In this document: piece by piece, positions 28,890-41,060 of the stretch | Position numbering within the stretch: the stretch's first letter is position 1 | Layout of the letters: each line of letters starts with the position of its first letter | Assembly (NCBI GenBank): GCA_903932145.1 | Contig: CAIZFE010000048.1 | Span: 62,001 to 126,000, forward strand | Direction: 5' to 3' | Length of the DNA stretch: 64,000 bases | Origin: an uncultured Rhodopila sp. | Lineage (GTDB): Bacteria > Pseudomonadota > Alphaproteobacteria > Acetobacterales > Acetobacteraceae | Notes under the pieces: generated by a model | The model's input: the letters and a program-made list of their open reading frames with translations, nothing else | What the model was told of the DNA's origin: nothing | The model's database searches: none | Program-made: the position numbers and the translations under genes

Positions 28890-31800
28890 CTACGACAGGC
28901 CGTCGAATGCCTTCAGGCATCGGGCCAGTGCATCCGGGTCGGATCGGTGGCTGAACCCTTTCAGCACATGTTCGTATTGCTGCCGCTCCAACCCATAACC
29001 ACGCGCCACTGTCGCATCGATCTCGGCGCGAAGCCTCGGGTCAGGGTCACCGCCCGACAACCGCAACGCCCCGCGTGCAAGGAAACGCTGCGCCTCGGCG
29101 CCTAACGATGGAACCGGTAGCGCGTCGAGTAGATACAGGCTGAGGTGCGTCGCCGCCTTCAACCGGACCAGCCAGTCGAACGGGAACGAATTGAACAGCG
29201 CACACAGCGCAAACGCATCCTCGGCTTTGCGTGCGTGCGGCGCTTTCTCGACCGTCGCGGTGTGGCCGAATACGACACCGGGGGGCGCCATACAGGCGAT
29301 CATCGTGCGCTCATCGTTCGAACGGGCGATGTCGCGAAAAACCAGCCGCACATGCCGGGACGCCTCCGCGATGGCGGGTTTCAGGGATGCGATGCCGACG
29401 CTGTAGCGCGGCTTGGAGTCCCGGGAGTCGACATATTGGTGGAAGGTTTTTCCCTCGTGCAGAAGCAGATCCCCTGCCCCGGCCGGCCGGAAAATCCCGG
29501 CGTCGGCGGTCATATGCAGGTCGCAGCCGAAACGGATTATTCTGCTATCGCACCACGCATTCAATCGCTCCGGATTAGAGAACATCGCTTCCGCGACTCT
29601 CATGTCGGCGTTGCCACGCAGTTCCAGCGGTGTGTGGCTGTCCCCGCCGGTTCGGTTCAGAAATGCCATGTCGTAACGTATGATCTTGTCTGGATCGGAA
29701 GCGTCCTCGATACGCTCCAGGTAGAACCCGCAGCGCCAGGATCGGGTCGGACCGGGACGCCGGGCGACGATCAGATCGAACTTGAAGCGGCTGTCGATGT
29801 CGAAGATGCGACGGCGATTTTCGAACGACAGACACCAGGTCAGGTTCGCATTCTGTAGATACAATCGCCTGATGGCGGTTGTACCCTCATTGGCATGAAA
29901 GGCCGATGGCATCAGCACGCCGATCGATCCATCCACCGCCGTCAGGTCCATATTGCGTTCCGCGAACAGACGGAACAGGTCGAGGTTGCCGGCTGTCGCC
30001 CGGGCGCGCTGATGGCGATAGATCCGCGCAGCGATGCGCTTCATGTGGTCGAAGCCCGCGCGGTAATCTTCGAAGACAGCCGCCACGCCGGGACGAGCCA
30101 GCACCGCCTGTTCGATGGACGCGCGCTGGTTGCGTGTCGGTGCATCCAGGACAGACGGATCGTAGTCGGCAACGAAATCCTTGGTATTGGGCAGCACCAC
30201 ATCCCACGGCGGATTGCCCAGCACGACGGAAAATCCGGTAGGAAAAACCTCCGGGAAGGTCAGGTCCCAGGCGACCGCATCCGCCCCGGCGGCCAGCAAC
30301 GCGGCCTGGCGTTTGGTCAGAGTGTCCGGCCAGAGTCCCGTTGTCGCAACACGATCGGCCATCGCCAGCCACACATCGTCGCCGTCCCGGTCTCGCAACA
30401 TCGCCGCCCCGCTCCAGGCGCGCGCGAGTTGGCGCAGCGGATACAATACCGCGTCGAGACGAGCTTTTGTGGCTTGTTTTGTCTCCAGATCGGCCATGTC
30501 CCGGCCGATGGATGCGTTCAGTTCCGCGGTCAGGCTTCGCGCCAGACGCAGGCTGTTTTGCAGCCGTTCCGCAACGCCTTGCGCCAGTAACGGGTCCAGC
30601 GGACCACCGGTCACCGGCAAAGTGGACAGCGCATCGAAGAACGGCCCGGTCAGCGCGTCGCCATGCACCAACCGATGGTCAAGAAACGTCAGTGGCAGGC
30701 CTTCCGCGTAGGATTCGAGCCATAGCGAGACCTTCGCCAGCTCCAACGCCAACTTGTTGCGATCGCAACCATACAGGCAATGCACCGCCACCAACCGCCG
30801 GCAAATCGCCCGCGCGCGGCCTTCCGAATAGCCACGGCTGGGGAGATATGGGGCGATCGTGTTGTCCGGATCGGGCAGCGCGGCGATGCGGTCATGCCAG
30901 CCCCGCTCATCGCAAGTGCGGCAGGCAGTCAGCAGTGCCTCGCCCAGATAACGACAGGTCTCGACAAGGAAATGGCCGCTGCCGGTCGAGGGATCGACGA
31001 TCTTCAGCGTCAGCAATTTCGCTGGGTTGGGGTCATCGGGTGGGCTGAGGGCGGCTATTTTCGGGTCCAGTGTCTCGCGCACCAGAAAACGAACGAATTC
31101 GTGTGGCGTGTAGAACGATCCCGTCGCTTTTCGACCTGGGCCCGAGCGTAGGAAAAACTGTCCTGGCGCGATGTCCGCCGGTTGCCCACAGGCGGGTAAC
31201 ACGGTTTCCAGCTTGCCGCGCCGCAAGCGTATCAGCGGTTCCGTTGCGATGTCGGGTTCTTGCTCCAACAAACCTTCATAGACGCTGCCAAGATCTTCCA
31301 CATCCAGCGAGCCGAAATGCACACGCGCACGCTGGGCCTTATCGGCGGAAATCCAGATCAACCGGTCGAGCAGGATCGCCACCGCTCGATCGCCCCATTC
31401 AATCCGGTCCAACACTGGTGTCGTATCCGCCCCGAACAGAGCGCCGCCCAGGGGCGCGATACGCAACTCCGAACACGCCAGGCCGTCTCGGAACAGTGCG
31501 AACAGCGACCGCAAACCGGTTTCCAGCATCCGGCCGGTATCTTGTCCGTGGTCCAGATGCCGCCGCACCAGCGGCCCCAGCGCTCGGTTTGGCGACAGCG
31601 CCGCGCGCCACAGGCGAGAGGAGGCGAAACTGAACCCGGCCCCCGGTTCGGTGGGGCTTTCCAATTTTAGAATGAACAACAGCCGATAGACCAGCACCAG
31701 ACCTTCGTGCCACAGCGCCGCCGCGTCCAGACCTGTCCGATCCGGTAATGCATTGATGAAGCCGGTGATCGCCTCCCGCGCCTGACGGCGCAGTTCGGTG

Positions 31801-32399
31801 GTGACTCGTACCTGGTGCAGACGGGCTGCTTCCAGCACGCTGGGCAGGCGCGGCAGACCGCGGGCGCCGGCCAGCGTCATCATAACGCGAAACGAGTCCG
31901 GGGGCACCGGGCTTTCCCGCCAACCACTGACCGGGATCGACAGGTGACTGTCGGACCGCGCAGGGTCGCACAGCAACAAACGCAACGTATCGCCGTTGGT
32001 CAGCAATCCGGCCCGCTCGCCGCGTGACAGCAGCACGCGCTGGGCAATGCGGGTGGGACTCAAGCGCGCCGCCAACGGCGACACCGCGTCCAGATCGGTA
32101 TCGCTGGCGATCGACCACGCGCGCAAACGGGTTCCGTTGTTGGCCTGCAACAGCCAGCCTCCATCCTCGGCACCTTCGCGGGTGGAAACCGGTTCCTGCC
32201 GGCTCGGCCGGCCGTAGCCGAACGCGCCGGCCAATTTCGCCGTCACATGTTGATGGACGCGTTCTGCTCCACCACTTCGCAACGATCTCCGAAAGGCGTC
32301 CCAGCCGAGGGCCACATCCTGCGGCAACACCAACCCGTCCCTCAGGAACGGCGCCGTCATCGCCGATCCGCTCAACACGCAGTCTTCCAGGTCGAGCAT
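28890..32399 (-). CDS. Large Eco57I-like adenine DNA methyltransferase (DrmMI/type IIG-like)
   Basis: A 1169-residue protein. A long N-terminal region without a clear nuclease motif is followed by an N6-adenine methyltransferase core: TGSFYTPHEFVRFLVRETLD, AdoMet motif I KIVDPSTGSGHFLVE, the CLYGCDRNKLALELAKVSLW segment and catalytic motif IV VVLGNPPWDVVLP. A target-recognition and C-terminal region follows (LYLQNANLTWCLSFENRRRI and onward). In DISARM the equivalent methyltransferase modifies host DNA while the partner helicase acts against unmodified phage DNA. The ATG at 32399 overlaps the helicase stop (TGATG), so the genes are coupled. Confidence 0.88.
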   Translation of the reverse strand: MLDLEDCVLSGSAMTAPFLRDGLVLPQDVALGWDAFRRSLRSGGAERVHQHVTAKLAGAFGYGRPSRQEPVSTREGAEDGGWLLQANNGTRLRAWSIASDTDLDAVSPLAARLSPTRIAQRVLLSRGERAGLLTNGDTLRLLLCDPARSDSHLSIPVSGWRESPVPPDSFRVMMTLAGARGLPRLPSVLEAARLHQVRVTTELRRQAREAITGFINALPDRTGLDAAALWHEGLVLVYRLLFILKLESPTEPGAGFSFASSRLWRAALSPNRALGPLVRRHLDHGQDTGRMLETGLRSLFALFRDGLACSELRIAPLGGALFGADTTPVLDRIEWGDRAVAILLDRLIWISADKAQRARVHFGSLDVEDLGSVYEGLLEQEPDIATEPLIRLRRGKLETVLPACGQPADIAPGQFFLRSGPGRKATGSFYTPHEFVRFLVRETLDPKIAALSPPDDPNPAKLLTLKIVDPSTGSGHFLVETCRYLGEALLTACRTCDERGWHDRIAALPDPDNTIAPYLPSRGYSEGRARAICRRLVAVHCLYGCDRNKLALELAKVSLWLESYAEGLPLTFLDHRLVHGDALTGPFFDALSTLPVTGGPLDPLLAQGVAERLQNSLRLARSLTAELNASIGRDMADLETKQATKARLDAVLYPLRQLARAWSGAAMLRDRDGDDVWLAMADRVATTGLWPDTLTKRQAALLAAGADAVAWDLTFPEVFPTGFSVVLGNPPWDVVLPNTKDFVADYDPSVLDAPTRNQRASIEQAVLARPGVAAVFEDYRAGFDHMKRIAARIYRHQRARATAGNLDLFRLFAERNMDLTAVDGSIGVLMPSAFHANEGTTAIRRLYLQNANLTWCLSFENRRRIFDIDSRFKFDLIVARRPGPTRSWRCGFYLERIEDASDPDKIIRYDMAFLNRTGGDSHTPLELRGNADMRVAEAMFSNPERLNAWCDSRIIRFGCDLHMTADAGIFRPAGAGDLLLHEGKTFHQYVDSRDSKPRYSVGIASLKPAIAEASRHVRLVFRDIARSNDERTMIACMAPPGVVFGHTATVEKAPHARKAEDAFALCALFNSFPFDWLVRLKAATHLSLYLLDALPVPSLGAEAQRFLARGALRLSGGDPDPRLRAEIDATVARGYGLERQQYEHVLKGFSHRSDPDALARCLKAFDGLS

Positions 32400-35300
32400 C
32401 AGGGCACCAGCATCAATAAACCGAGTTTCCGTAGCGATCGCGGCGGTAACGGTCCGCGATCCGGCGACATCTCCCGGAACGCGGACAGCACCTCTCCGGC
32501 CTGACGCCGTTGCGACGGCGTTTGCAACGGATCGGCGGCGAACCGGGCAAGGCGTTGTTCCGGGACCGCACACGAACGCCAATCACCGGCTGATGGTTCG
32601 GTATCAAACAGATCACCGGCCACGACCGGGCCACAGAGTTCCTGTGTCCGGCTCTCCAGCCAGATGCGGACGGATCTGGTTTCCTGCGCGATCCGTTCTT
32701 GGTGAGCGATCGAAAAGTCCGAAACAATCGCGTCCGCAATAACCGCCGCCCGGGACTCAGCCGCCGCTTGCCAACTGGCAAACGAATCACCATCGCAGAA
32801 CAGTGATATTGGATTGTTAAAGTGATGATATATTCCAATCTTCTCACCCGCGTCATGGTCCGGCTTGGCCCCATGGGCATCAGGATCAGCCGCGGCTACA
32901 GAAAACTCTTTCCCCGGACGTGGCTTTCCACTCTCCGTCATGGCCGGGCTTGGCCCGGCCACCCACGACTTTGCTGGCGGCGGCTCAGAAAGGCGTGGGT
33001 GGCCGGGCCCAGCCCGGCCATGACGAATGGGCAAATTCTCCCCATCAGACGTTTTATCCTGATGCCCATGGGGCTTGGCCCGGCCACCCCGGTCTTGCTC
33101 TGCTGGTGCTGCAAAAGTCGGGCGGGGCCGAGCCAAACCCTGCCATGACGATTGGGTAGAATCCGCCCTGTCATCGTCACCCGTTTGGCCTGTGCCACGG
33201 GTCGCCTGCTCCTGCGCCAGGGACAGAAAATCCGGCTGCTCCACAACTGCCCCGTCCGGAAACACCCGCAGCGCAAAGACTTTGCGCAGCAACGACCCGA
33301 CTTCGACCGAGTACGTCACCAGCAAGGACAGAGCATCACCCCGAGCCACGCTCACCCGGCCGCTTCGAACCGAGGCAATGGCGCGCCGGGTCAGCGGATG
33401 CGAGCGGCCGGGATACAGCAGCGTCCGGCCGTTTTCGTCCCGTAGTCGTTCCGGATCGCCGGTCAGGCGGACCATACCGCGGTCGAACCCCGGAAGCCCT
33501 TCCAAATCAGAAACCCAGCCCGCCGGAACCCGGTATCCGTCGCCCTCCGGTGTCAGGACGGAGGCAACGAACGCCGGCAGATCGATATCGGCCAGATCGT
33601 CAGCCGGCGCATCAACCGGCACCGGCCCGCCCGATAACCACCCGTGCCGAACAGCCATACGATCGAATCCCTGGAACGCCCGGTCGATCTCCCGCAGCAG
33701 GTCTCGATACGCCTCGCTGCCGGTATCCTCGGCCGCCAAATCCAGCGAGTGAATCGGCCGCGGCATCCCGCTCAGCAGGTCCTCGGCAAATCCCGCAAAC
33801 AGCGGCTCGTGCAAACTGGCCGGATCGGCGCTGACACCCAGCGTGTTCGGCATGAACGACAGGCAAGACCGAGCTTTTTCGTATTTGGCGATCAGGCGCA
33901 GCAGCAGGCGTTCCTCGAACGTGCCGGCCAGAAACAAATACCGTATCTCCGGGTCGTTACGCTGCCCATAGCGATCGATACGGCCGTTGCGCTGTTCCAG
34001 CCGGTTCGGATTGTACGGCAAATCCAGATGGATCAGGTGAAAGCAGCGCCGGTGCAGGTTCAGGCCTTCGGCCAGGGAGTCGGTGCTGACCAGGATAATT
34101 CCGTCCTCTTCGGCGCATCGTTCGGCGGCCCGCGTTCGTTCGCCTTCAGGATCGGCACCGCTGATGGTCAGGACGCCGCCGATTGCCGCCAAAGCCTCCA
34201 CGGCGGCGCGCTGGCTGTCGGCATACTCCGTATAGACAAGGATATTGGCGTTCGGATGACGCAACCGAATCAACCGGATCTCCAGCACCAGCGCCGCGAG
34301 TTTGGGGTCGTGGCGCAGTGCCGCCTCGCCCAACCGGATCAGGGCCTGTAGTTCGGCGGCCGTCGCTTCCCCCGCCAACGACGCCGCCATTTCCTCCGCC
34401 TCCAGTTCGGCGATATCGTCCTCGTCCGCCGCCCCCAACACCCCGAAGCGAGCCATCCGGCGGCGATAGGCGAGCAAGGCGCGCTGCCGTTCACGCAACG
34501 GCTTGATCCCGTATCGGTCCGCCACAACGCGCAACGTGGCCACGCAGGCAGCGATCGTTGACATCGATCGTTTCAACAGACTGACGAAGGCCAGCGCGTC
34601 GGTCAGTCCCGCGCGGTCGTGCGAGCGTTGCAACCGCGGCGCCACCAATGCCGACAGCGCCTTATGAAAATCGCTGACGGGGGGGGCATCCGACACATCC
34701 ACCCGAACCGGGATAACAATCCGCTCGCGGAACAGCGGCGCGCCGGACGCCGAACGGATGTGCGATTTCAGCCGCCGGACAATGTGGCGGCGATAGGCGG
34801 ATCCGACCAGCCGCCCTGCCCCATCGACCAGACTCGGGTCCAGCAGGGCGATCAGCGAGGCGAAATGCGGGTCGTGCCCGTCATGCGGCGTGGCCGTCAG
34901 CAGCAGCAAACCGTCGGACTGCCGCGCCAGCACCTCCGCCAACCGGCGCCGCTGGTTTTCATCGCCGACGCAGTGATGCGCTTCGTCGATAATCACCAAA
35001 TCCCAGGCCACGCGCTCCAGTTCCGCCAGGACCCGGTCCGCCTTGGCGAAATCGATCGAGGTCAAACACAGCGCTGTCGCATCGAACGGGTTGCCGCCCA
35101 GTTCCAAGCCGCGCCGCGCCGCCAACAGGCTGGCGCTATCGACAATCGCGGTGAAACGCAGCCCGAAACGGACGCGCATTTCTTGCTCCCACTGCCGCAG
35201 CAATGGACCGGGAGGGCACACGATCAGAATCCGATGCGCTCGGCGCCGGGCCAGCAGTTCGGCGGCGATCAGGCCGGCCTGGATGGTCTTGCCCAATCCG

Positions 35301-35659
35301 ACACCGTCCGCCAGCAGCAACCTGGGCCGCACCATGTCCAATGCGCGCATTAGCGGAACGCGTTGATACGCCTCGATCGCCACCCGGCCGGGCGACACCG
35401 CCGGACCGGGAATTTGCTCCAACAGGCGCGCGATATGGTAACGCCGCCAATCCGCCAGCGACCCCGCATCTTCAAGCCGCGGATCAGTGGACAGAACTGA
35501 CAGCGCCTCCGCCGGATACAGCACGTCCCATTCCAGCCCGGCCAAATCGCCGCCAGTGCAGGCCAATCGCACGCGTTGCTGGGCGCCGAGTGGCTCCACT
35601 TCGGTCACATCCCATTCCAGCCCGCGCGCCGCGACCTTGATCCCGACCGACACTTCCAT
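32399..35659 (-). CDS. SNF2-family helicase (DrmD-like) with in-frame repeat insertion
   Basis: A 1086-residue SF2 helicase. Visible motifs: I LLADGVGLGKTIQAGLIAAE, Ia ILIVCPPGPLLRQWEQEM, II LVIIDEAHHCVGDE, III LLLLTATPHDGHDPHFA, then in the second RecA domain VYTEYADSQRAAVEALA, STDSLAEGLNLHRRC and VI NPNRLEQRNGRIDRYGQ. N-terminal GLEWDVTEVEPL and GLEWDVLYPAE repeats precede the ATPase. Residues about 827-942 are a low-complexity insert whose DNA is a double palindromic repeat, after which a normal-looking tail resumes (SFASWQAAAESRAAVIADAI). The ATG at 35659 has a weak ribosome site. It is divergent from the SDR gene, and no further defence gene lies upstream. Confidence 0.9.
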   Translation of the reverse strand: MEVSVGIKVAARGLEWDVTEVEPLGAQQRVRLACTGGDLAGLEWDVLYPAEALSVLSTDPRLEDAGSLADWRRYHIARLLEQIPGPAVSPGRVAIEAYQRVPLMRALDMVRPRLLLADGVGLGKTIQAGLIAAELLARRRAHRILIVCPPGPLLRQWEQEMRVRFGLRFTAIVDSASLLAARRGLELGGNPFDATALCLTSIDFAKADRVLAELERVAWDLVIIDEAHHCVGDENQRRRLAEVLARQSDGLLLLTATPHDGHDPHFASLIALLDPSLVDGAGRLVGSAYRRHIVRRLKSHIRSASGAPLFRERIVIPVRVDVSDAPPVSDFHKALSALVAPRLQRSHDRAGLTDALAFVSLLKRSMSTIAACVATLRVVADRYGIKPLRERQRALLAYRRRMARFGVLGAADEDDIAELEAEEMAASLAGEATAAELQALIRLGEAALRHDPKLAALVLEIRLIRLRHPNANILVYTEYADSQRAAVEALAAIGGVLTISGADPEGERTRAAERCAEEDGIILVSTDSLAEGLNLHRRCFHLIHLDLPYNPNRLEQRNGRIDRYGQRNDPEIRYLFLAGTFEERLLLRLIAKYEKARSCLSFMPNTLGVSADPASLHEPLFAGFAEDLLSGMPRPIHSLDLAAEDTGSEAYRDLLREIDRAFQGFDRMAVRHGWLSGGPVPVDAPADDLADIDLPAFVASVLTPEGDGYRVPAGWVSDLEGLPGFDRGMVRLTGDPERLRDENGRTLLYPGRSHPLTRRAIASVRSGRVSVARGDALSLLVTYSVEVGSLLRKVFALRVFPDGAVVEQPDFLSLAQEQATRGTGQTGDDDRADSTQSSWQGLARPRPTFAAPAEQDRGGRAKPHGHQDKTSDGENLPIRHGRAGPGHPRLSEPPPAKSWVAGPSPAMTESGKPRPGKEFSVAAADPDAHGAKPDHDAGEKIGIYHHFNNPISLFCDGDSFASWQAAAESRAAVIADAIVSDFSIAHQERIAQETRSVRIWLESRTQELCGPVVAGDLFDTEPSAGDWRSCAVPEQRLARFAADPLQTPSQRRQAGEVLSAFREMSPDRGPLPPRSLRKLGLLMLVP
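32858..33150. repeat. Two nested palindromic elements (type A) inserted inside the helicase gene
   Basis: Copy 1 (about 32936-33024) has arms TCATGGCCGGGCTTGGCCCG and its complement; copy 2 (about 33066-33150) starts GGGGCTTGGCCCGGCCACCC and ends in TGCCATGACG. They sit between two inverted flanks: CCCATGGGCATCAGGAT at about 32868 and ATCCTGATGCCCATGGGG at about 33057. Translation in the helicase frame gives RHGRAGPGHPRL and WVAGPSPAMT, as also seen from the copy at 45731-45820, so the frame is kept. Confidence 0.85.
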
Positions 35660-35730
35660 GCACTTTGTCCCGTGAAACGCCGACACGGAACCACGAAGAA
35701 GTTGCTAAATCGTTAACGGAGGCCAAGAAA

Positions 35731-39022: not shown

Positions 39023-39439
39023 TTAGCCGGCGCCACGCCCGGCGTGGTTCTCCCCATAGCGCATTCCCTCCAGCTTCATTCCATCCGGATCGAGGAAGAA
39101 CACCGCGTAATAATCGTCGTAATACTCCCCGGCGGGATCGACGATGGTGGCTTTCAGTTCATCCCGCACGAATGCGTCCAGGTCATCGACATCTTTGCGG
39201 CTGCGCAGACGGAACGCGTAATGATGAAATCCGGCGTCGCCGGCATGGTATTTCCGGCCCTTGGGGTCCGCCTGCCCGATCCAGAACAGCGTGTGACCGT
39301 TGCTCCATCCCATCGTACCGCGATATTCGGCCTCCACCTTGAAACCGAGGAACGCAAACAGCCGGCTGTAGAAATCCTTCGATTTTTCGTAGTCGCACAC
39401 CCGTATCGACAGGTGATCGATGCCGACGACCCGAACCAT
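39023..39439 (-). CDS. VOC-superfamily protein (glyoxalase/extradiol dioxygenase fold)
   Basis: A 138-residue single-domain vicinal oxygen chelate protein with VVGIDHLSIRVCDYEKSKDF at the start (first metal His), HHYAFRLRSRKDVDDLDAFV in the middle and a C-terminal AVFFLDPDGMKLEGMRY (Glu ligand). It is likely a metal-dependent lyase, isomerase or resistance protein; substrate unknown. The ATG at 39439 with GGGAGG before it was chosen over longer upstream frames. It is the last gene of the UGSC unit on the minus strand. Confidence 0.88.
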   Translation of the reverse strand: MVRVVGIDHLSIRVCDYEKSKDFYSRLFAFLGFKVEAEYRGTMGWSNGHTLFWIGQADPKGRKYHAGDAGFHHYAFRLRSRKDVDDLDAFVRDELKATIVDPAGEYYDDYYAVFFLDPDGMKLEGMRYGENHAGRGAG

Positions 39440-39452
39440 ACCAGCCTCCCCG

Positions 39453-39977
39453 CTAACCCAGCCCCAGCAACCCCCGCATCTGCTCGATCGTTGCCCGCGC
39501 CATCTCCCGCAGACCGTCATCCGTCGCACTACTCACCGGATGATCAATCACCGCGAAGGCAAACCCTGGCATCCCCAGCACGCGACTCATCAATTCAGCC
39601 GCGCTGACGAACCGCGTCGTCATCACCGCGACCGCGGGAACGCCCAGACGCTCAGCCACAATGGAGTCATGCAGACTGCACGACGAGCAACTGCCTCAGT
39701 CGCCGATCCCGGTGACGATCGCATCCCAGTTGGCGATTTCACCAACGATCCAGCCATCCGCCGGGGCGCTATAGTTTGACTTGGTGCGGTTCACGACCGA
39801 CGCGACGCCGAAGTCCTCGCGCAGCATCCGATCCAGATGGGCGAAATAACCCTTCGTCCCCTCTTTACCGTTGGAGATGAAGCCGACGGTCTTCCCGCGC
39901 AACGACCCCGGCCGGGGCGCAAGCTGGCCCAACGGCGGCGCCATTTCATTGGTCGGATCGAGAACCTGAAAACCCAT
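39453..39977 (-). CDS. UGSC-family selenoprotein (in-frame UGA = selenocysteine)
   Basis: Read through one in-frame TGA (39696-39698) this gene gives 174 residues. The first part (MGFQVLDPTNEMAPPLGQLA, then LRGKTVGFISNGKEGTKGYF) runs to AIVTGIGD, then UGA, then GSCSSCSLHDSIVAERLGVP, AVAVMTTRFVSAAELMSRVL and a normal C-terminus at 39453. Both halves are coherent, with no frame change, and the residues around the UGA are U-G-S-C, the motif that names the UGSC (seleno)protein family known from genome annotation. A hairpin fitting a bacterial SECIS lies just after the UGA. GGAGGG precedes the ATG. Selenium-dependent redox chemistry is expected; the exact reaction is unknown. Automated callers will split it in two. 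Confidence 0.85.
39666..39698 (-). promoter_or_regulatory. SECIS-like hairpin directly after the UGA codon
   Basis: On the minus strand UGA (39698-39696) is followed by 11 bases and then an 8-base-pair stem, GUCGUGCA with UGCAUGAC (one G-U pair), closed by a GUC loop at 39676-39674. The loop begins 20 bases after the UGA and carries G-U, as in known bacterial SECIS elements that bind SelB. Confidence 0.7.
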
Positions 39978-40004
39978 CGCCGCCCTCCGTGCGCCCGGTA
40001 AGCT

Positions 40005-41060
40005 TCAACCCGATACAGGCCCACAGTCAACACACGCCCCGATCGCCATCGTCACCGCCTGGCTTTTGTGTCCCAGCCAGGGCGGGATGATGGCGCCAAA
40101 TCCGCCCGCCGGGCCGCCAGCCGCGACCACCAGCAAATGTTCGGGTGATTCCAGCGCTGGATAAATACTGTCGCCGCGATCCCGCACCACCGCCCCTTTG
40201 CCCACATCGGCCCATTCCCGGCGAGGAATCCGAGCCCGTTCATGAATAAACGCCGCGATATCGGTCTTGCTCCAACCCGCCGAAATCAGATGTTCCCGCA
40301 ACTGCTTTGGGATTACCAGGGCGTAGTTGCCGGCGTGCAACGAGTAGTGCCGCAGGTTGGCGCGCATTTCCGCGGCGAATGTTTCCAGGATTTCCTTCGG
40401 CTCCGTCGTCCATTCGTTCATGATCTGCCGAGGCGACCCGGCTGCCATCACCGTGACGGCCGACACCTCCTTCGGCATGCCGCGCTGTTCGGCGAGCGAG
40501 AGCCACGCGCTGTCTTCTTCATCCTCGGCGACACAAAAAGTGAATTTTCCGGGGTGCCCCAGCGTCGAACGATCAATTCCGCCCGGCCGCACTTCCAGGA
40601 TATTGATCAGCGCCAGCCGCAACGCCCGCCCGATCACCGCGGTGGCGCGATCGGAGTTCCCCAATGCATTAAACGACCCCGACGCCCCGATCTCCCGCCG
40701 GATCGGTCCGTTCAGAACCACAAAAATCGCGCATCCGCCCGTGCTCGCGGTGGCTCCGTGCAGTAGAAATTCGGGTTGCAACATCGCCGTGAAAGCCGTG
40801 AGCACGGCGGGGAAATGCATCGGCAGACAGCCGGCCATCACCGCGTTGATGGCCAGCTTTTCAGCGGTCACCGCCAGCGCCCGCACCGGTTCTATCCCCA
40901 GAAGCTGATCCGGAGGGGTCATCGCCCAGTCGAGACACGCTTCCACCGCATCGCGCGTCGGCGGCACAATCGGCAAGCCGTCGGTCCAGCCGTTGGAATG
41001 GTACAGTTCCTGAACCGCCGCGATATCGCCGGCGTCATATATCCTGGAGGTCAGATGCAC
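40005..41060 (-). CDS. UGSC-linked protein of unknown function
   Basis: A 351-residue protein 27 bases upstream of the selenoprotein gene in the same direction. It opens with ELYHSNGWTDGLPIVPPTRD, then GCLPMHFPAVLTAFTAML, GATASTGGCAIFVVLNGPIR, a long central part, and ends in AIGACVDCGPVSG. It has several Cys residues and no membrane segment. As I recall, longer UGSC proteins in other bacteria start with a similar WTDGLPVVPPT segment, so this may be the N-terminal half of a protein that is fused elsewhere and split here; that is inference. ATG at 41060. Confidence 0.7.
   Translation of the reverse strand: MHLTSRIYDAGDIAAVQELYHSNGWTDGLPIVPPTRDAVEACLDWAMTPPDQLLGIEPVRALAVTAEKLAINAVMAGCLPMHFPAVLTAFTAMLQPEFLLHGATASTGGCAIFVVLNGPIRREIGASGSFNALGNSDRATAVIGRALRLALINILEVRPGGIDRSTLGHPGKFTFCVAEDEEDSAWLSLAEQRGMPKEVSAVTVMAAGSPRQIMNEWTTEPKEILETFAAEMRANLRHYSLHAGNYALVIPKQLREHLISAGWSKTDIAAFIHERARIPRREWADVGKGAVVRDRGDSIYPALESPEHLLVVAAGGPAGGFGAIIPPWLGHKSQAVTMAIGACVDCGPVSG

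Follow-up and report, generated by a model that had tools for sequence, protein, structure and literature searches.

The locus described here raises the question of whether two adjoining minus-strand reading frames, separated by a single TGA, encode one selenoprotein and, if they do, in which kind of reaction that protein may take part. They lie in a window of 64,000 nucleotides, the whole stretch of DNA that we analysed, from the genome of an uncultured Rhodopila sp. Our analysis predicts, with close to complete confidence, that they form a functional gene for a UGSC-family selenoprotein; taking this identity together with the proposal that its product works in an obligate complex with the protein encoded next to it, we give this main reading a probability of about 0.87.

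The gene is a fresh member of an already known selenoprotein family. According to excerpts of the Global Ocean Sampling survey of 2008, a 'UGSC-containing protein' was found there in 255 Sec and 21 Cys forms and also fused to a domain named Unknown_1, and the same excerpts describe no regular neighbour gene (PMC2398784). Parts of a 2021 survey put UGSC at 8.2% of selenoprotein genes, and by both surveys it ranks among the most abundant selenoproteins of aquatic metagenomes; the relevant section of a 2026 review lists it among families of largely uncharacterised function (PMC13188914). Neither a partner as regular neighbour nor kinship to GrdB/PrdB is mentioned in the portions at hand of those main texts (supplements apart) that name UGSC, within a literature set comprising PMC2398784, PMC13188914, PMC9312934, PMC5029168, PMC5330540, PMC7539508, PMC9402790 and PMC10838667. 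What our findings add to earlier knowledge are a co-inherited partner that has no family model and a probable kinship to PrdB/GrdB which, along with natural fusions of the two proteins and a flavoprotein at some loci, point to a two-protein reductase that can be put to the test.

The UGSC gene and its in-frame UGA

On the minus strand from 39977 to 39453, the sequence runs from ATG through GIGD-UGA-GSCSSC to TAG, a frame of 174 codons whose sole interruption is one TGA (39453..39977, encoding 174 aa), and GGAGGG at 39983..39988 on the same strand is a likely ribosome-binding site for its start codon. The sequence-only reading had joined both frames across this TGA, which our data bear out, save that it let the second half begin at 39693: since the UGA occupies 39696..39698 (minus strand), the actual start is 39695. 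The UGA is the predicted Sec codon for residue 94, giving the motif U-G-S-C-S-S-C, and the relatives read at this column carry TGA or a Cys codon in its place. The joined protein matches the Pfam family PF24696 "UGSC" over positions 1-170 of 172 (E 1.4e-46, 159.2 bits), well above the gathering cut-off of 25 bits, so that the family assignment made from the motif holds for the protein in full length. When the halves are matched separately, the part upstream of the UGA covers profile positions 1-92 (E 3.7e-13) and the part downstream positions 95-170 of 172 (E 1.7e-23), i.e. consecutive ranges. Sec (or Cys) followed by G-S-C, as looked for in members of the family, is found in the window gene. 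Hence, the whole-length match, the U-G-S-C motif and Sec/Cys at one column are shared with the UGSC family (PF24696, NF041046); the window protein differs in staying under the cut-off of NCBIfam NF041046 (112.8 bits over positions 2-145 of 147, against an equivalog cut-off of 125 bits), as do the second and third UGSC copies of the host (117.0 and 106.3 bits).

Homologues were checked for the residue at the UGA column, and this is Sec or Cys with conservation on both flanks. A profile search of the host's class yielded 99 UGSC matches in 38 of 385 genomes. Of these matches, 94 contain a single TGA and the other five none; copy numbers per genome are lower bounds (up to eight UGSC and five partner candidates were scored) and one genome of the class has at least eight UGSC matches. 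For 63 of the 99 matches (63 sites at 61 loci) we fetched the context, and the motif column reads TGA in 59 and a Cys codon (TGC/TGT) in four; the fifth match free of TGA spans profile positions 2-77 only. Loci that had been gathered with the partner protein as query, the best 80 of 266 relatives (hereafter named loci), have TGA in this column at all of their 81 sites. In a sample of the phylum, UGSC occurs in five of 398 genomes, all within the host's class, and three of these are additional to the class sample: one with Sec (G666), one with Cys (G506) and one with Cys in a broken frame (G635), each with a partner match on the same stretch as UGSC. The UGSC relative of G635 (C6:12789-13246, locus L115) combines Cys in the motif with a stray TGA elsewhere, which teaches that a single TGA inside a match does not by itself place that TGA at the motif. 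At every site read, the motif column is Sec or Cys.

Translation across the UGA is also reflected in substitution rates, for which 40 relatives that passed a divergence filter (taken from named loci L121-L160) served as comparison. In the part preceding the UGA, the rates at codon positions 1/2/3 are.152/.170/.486, and in the part following it.173/.149/.484. These near-equal values on both sides argue that both halves evolve as translated sequence. If this is so, any gene caller that treats UGA as a stop would split off one half and leave the other stranded as an isolated hypothetical protein.

SECIS hairpin and selenocysteine machinery

A hairpin just 3' of the UGA (39666..39684, minus strand) had been proposed as a bacterial SECIS element with an 8-bp stem and a GUC loop, and this is what we find: the stem GTCGTGCA/TGCATGAC with loop GTC starts 11 bases past the UGA, its loop begins at the 20th base past it, and the hairpin is conserved across copies. 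We aligned 46 of the 52 non-redundant copies; of the 368 cells that their eight stem positions make up, 91.6% are paired. The six copies left out are UGSCTPAV/UGACTPAV fusions, a divergent clade whose hairpin differs. The covariation score is 0.182, whereas shuffles give 0.099 and slid partners no more than 0.104, and the clearest case is a swap of C-G to G-C in seven of the 46 copies, which at the protein level turns C-S-L into W-S-F in four and C-C-M into W-C-I in three. By simpler counts the controls come close, with 11 two-sided cells in the slid control -1 versus 10 in the hairpin, and a tie between slid control +3 and the hairpin at three pairs with two-sided change and seven pair types. 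Compared with synonymous recodings, the energy of the window hairpin is unremarkable when taken alone (z -0.64), and the 52 non-redundant copies average z -1.26, with 28 of the 52 below -1. With energies no more than moderately low, the hairpin could not have been established from its stability by itself; the evidence for it lies in its fixed place and in covariation across copies. Thus, a SECIS hairpin at a fixed distance past the UGA, as is looked for in selenoprotein genes, is found here, albeit weakly when the window copy is judged by itself.

The proposal made from the window alone that the organism makes selenocysteine gains support from the host genome (6.66 Mb, 115 contigs, 100% complete), where selA (C4:61623, 554.8 bits) directly adjoins the gene for tRNA-Sec (selC; C4:62977, 71.8 bits, called by ARAGORN as SeC(tca) with a UCA anticodon) and where selB (C2:12841, 409.5 bits) and selD (C86:269266-270138, 300.4 bits) are present, too, as are two further UGSC copies with one TGA each. 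SelB and tRNA-Sec(UCA) would then be expected to decode the UGA with the aid of the hairpin. The selD match is part of an open frame of 706 residues (L021) with an oxidoreductase-like N-terminal part, probably an oxidoreductase-SelD fusion. Across the class sample, selA scores above its cut-off in 35 of the 38 genomes with UGSC versus 21 of the 347 others (raw counts, uncorrected for kinship). Two of the three UGSC genomes that lack it (G326, G363) have Cys-UGSC only; the third (G011), which is 77% complete, does have TGA copies.

Could the locus instead be a split pseudogene, i.e. a once Cys- or other-coding gene hit by a nonsense mutation or a sequencing error? The frame is, after all, interrupted by a stop codon, and the relative in G635 does look broken. 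Such decay is at odds with the placement of TGA in the motif column at nearly all examined sites of the class and at every site of the named loci, with the fact that 94 of the 99 class matches contain a single TGA, with equal codon constraint before and after the UGA and with a genome that holds the complete Sec machinery. We therefore consider a split pseudogene to have next to no chance, and go on with the window gene as a selenoprotein gene.

The partner protein

The gene 27 bases upstream of UGSC (40005..41060, minus strand) encodes 351 aa and belongs to a family that is co-inherited with UGSC. At E <= 0.01, neither Pfam nor NCBIfam has a family that matches this partner or any of 35 diverse relatives; the named sequences closest to it come from Rhodopila and Acidisphaera. 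Among the 63 sites selected by UGSC, 60 have the partner on the same strand within 400 nt, upstream or downstream, and at 10 of these 60 it is naturally fused to UGSC. The three exceptions are L072, where 12.8 kb of sequence contain no partner, L074 with a distance of 935 nt and L095 with a partner fragment at a contig end. All four Cys-UGSC sites have the partner as well. Seen from the other side, one scan with the partner as sole query returned 266 relatives, the best 80 of which (74-93% identical) were kept, and all of these 80 loci carry a TGA-UGSC gene, with 80 of their 81 UGSC sites within 400 nt of the partner and the remaining one (L128, the locus of Rhodopila globiformis DSM 161, which thus has the pair) at 843 nt. 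A partner profile hits 38 of the 385 class genomes, and this set is identical to that of the UGSC genomes. Moreover, over 69 non-redundant pairs the distance matrices of UGSC and partner correlate with r 0.96, and none of 999 permutations exceeds 0.23; the nearest neighbour agrees between the two in only 31 of the 69 pairs.

In AlphaFold2 models, a natural UGSC-partner fusion reaches pLDDT 92.9 and pTM 0.92, and the window pair, modelled as one chain by reading across the stop codon of the partner, reaches pLDDT 87.4 and pTM 0.85 with a linker below 50. These joint models suggest that the two proteins may form a defined complex. Based on co-inheritance, occasional fusion and confident joint models, UGSC very probably works as an obligate complex with the 351-aa partner.

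Conserved motifs of the partner are G-W-[ST]-D-G-L-P, V-M-A-G-C, N-G-P and I-G-R-A, with only one nearly invariant Cys; in the numbering of the window partner, D27, C78, R145 and E179 are among its conserved residues. As the nearly invariant Cys is missing in some members, a universal Cys-derived pyruvoyl group is unlikely, and a role of the partner as the pyruvoyl subunit of glycine/proline reductase found no match by family profiles. Equally, the partner could not be linked to UGSC itself (hhalign score 19.3, probability 0.9). Searched by sequence against solved structures, neither the window UGSC nor the window partner nor a joint profile brought up a match at E <= 1; the UGSC profile on its own gave rows only at E 0.088 or worse and the partner profile only at 0.3. 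At several loci (L055, L097, L099, L105, L111, L113, L087, L100, L106, L107, L108), a single UGSC gene is accompanied by two distinct partner paralogues, which suggests a three-subunit version.

Probable kinship to PrdB/GrdB and possible chemistry

When an alignment of UGSC (A7; 30 of 144 sites, picked for diversity) was compared by hhalign with one of PrdB-like proteins (A6; 21 of 31 loci of the same class with PF07355 matches), the resulting match, which spans 59 columns only and places Sec column on Sec column, scored 41.9 (E 5.7e-6, probability 85.5). Sixty column shuffles reached no more than 23.0 and two reversals 13.8 and 13.1; with all Cys masked, the score was still 33.7 versus at most 19.7 in 40 shuffles. 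The ten loci outside the PrdB-like alignment comprise six without an in-frame U-x-x-C and four PrdB-like ones that were not used. Shared between UGSC and PrdB/GrdB are the UxxC motif and a strand-U-helix-G-[IV]-P pattern, and the UxxCxxC motif given for GrdB in the available part of a review (PMC13188914) has its counterpart in U-x-x-C-x-x-C of the window UGSC. In Pfam at E <= 1e-3 the window UGSC matches PF24696 only and not PF07355, and in NCBIfam NF041046 only and not TIGR04483; the missing PF07355 match makes UGSC a remote relative of that family rather than a member. From these profile comparisons we judge a distant relationship between UGSC and the PrdB/GrdB selenoproteins to be likely. 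The two systems differ in that the UGSC partner, by family profiles, is a protein other than the pyruvoyl proprotein GrdE/PrdA. The host also has a gene of the PrdB-like set with an in-frame TGA (C98:121466-121870, L209; motif VUPLC), which matches TIGR04483 PrdB at E 1.9e-24 (86.4 bits; model cut-off 300 bits) and is probably split in annotation, since its PF07355 match stops just before the TGA.

The kinship to PrdB/GrdB and the pairing with the partner lead us to the reading that UGSC and partner most likely are a two-protein seleno-reductase. In such an enzyme, the partner would bind an organic-acid-like substrate, the UGSC selenolate would attack the bound acid, and the ensuing Se-S or Se-C state would be resolved by Cys97, attack and resolution both being modelled on glycine and proline reductase; a flavoprotein of the thioredoxin-reductase type, which adjoins some loci, would reset the enzyme. 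Glycine and proline reductase are the established model for selenolate attack and reductive cleavage chemistry. The analogy also draws on parts of the 2026 review (PMC13188914), and a fluoroacetate-reducing, GrdB-like operon of Synergistota, to judge by its description in the sections at hand (PMC10838667), is akin in putting a GrdB-related protein to work on a C-X substrate that is not an amino acid. By this analogy, one may tentatively envisage that the enzyme reductively cleaves a C-N, C-O, C-S or C-halogen bond. With the same reserve, UGSC and partner might form an unrecognised branch of the glycine/proline reductases, with paralogous copies in relatives of Rhodopila and Reyranella, differing catabolic neighbourhoods and Se-dependent cleavage of such bonds in organic acids.

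Two other functions have to be weighed against a seleno-reductase. A thioredoxin fold was guessed for UGSC in the 2008 survey, as far as its available text goes (PMC2398784), and the protein could accordingly be a thiol oxidoreductase acting on protein disulfides or peroxides with the partner as scaffold or client, for which the UxxC motif and the CAxC flavoprotein adjoining eight of 61 loci may speak. Yet no thioredoxin is among the matches listed by Foldseek (50 per two-protein model, all rows weak), those that by size would fit UGSC being flavodoxin- or lumazine-synthase-like, and the profile match is to PrdB/GrdB, so we hold this function to be unlikely. More improbable still, to our minds, is that the pair is an alpha/beta hydro-lyase of the class I fumarase type rather than a reductase, with Sec/Cys as metal or cluster ligand. 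Foldseek does rank a Leishmania fumarate hydratase (6uq8, E 8.4e-6, 547 columns) first for the window pair, the subunit sizes of class I fumarases would presumably fit, and MmgE/PrpD and enoyl-CoA hydratase genes are neighbours at some loci. However, 6uq8 is absent from the 50 matches listed for the natural-fusion model, and the partner has no Pfam match and only the one nearly invariant Cys that some members lack; since the window pair does not superpose on 6uq8 (TM-score 0.19, 18 A rmsd, 8% identity), we set this match aside.

For the two-protein seleno-reductase, the gene neighbourhood offers some context. Neighbours were counted by phmmer with 16 chosen neighbour proteins, because picking ORFs in GC-rich DNA had yielded shadow ORFs. 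Beyond the partner, no shared neighbourhood was seen, and neighbours differ from locus to locus, which would fit a catabolic reductase of changing substrates. A thioredoxin-reductase-like flavoprotein lies within 240 nt of UGSC at eight of the 61 class loci, with CAxC in all eight, and adjoins UGSC of two motif types, the host's third copy among them; its gene at L100 runs on the opposite strand. It was not found near the other 53 class loci nor near any of the 80 named loci. CoA-transferase III occurs within 3 kb at nine of the 61 class and seven of the 80 named loci, and other varying neighbours include TRAP and tripartite carboxylate transporters and PEP-mutase-like, MmgE/PrpD, enoyl-CoA hydratase and hydantoinase B proteins. 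Directly downstream of the window UGSC, profile matching identifies a gene of the VOC/glyoxalase superfamily (39023..39439, minus strand); homologues within 3 kb are found at one of 61 class loci, the window locus itself, and at seven of 80 named loci, and this rarity argues against a core role.

In the host, the third UGSC copy (motif UGSCSSW; C111:65000-80500, L055) comes with two partner genes and stands in a row with a CAxC thioredoxin-reductase-like protein, a luciferase-like monooxygenase, CoA-transferase III, a Zn-alcohol dehydrogenase and a TPP enzyme. Elsewhere in the window (28890-35686, minus strand), two long overlapping frames of 1230 and 1095 aa have their best PADLOC matches in DrmMI (2.8e-87) and DrmD (3.8e-101), with further matches to type IIG restriction-methyltransferase and BrxH models; by these profile matches they may represent a DISARM- or restriction-like defence pair.
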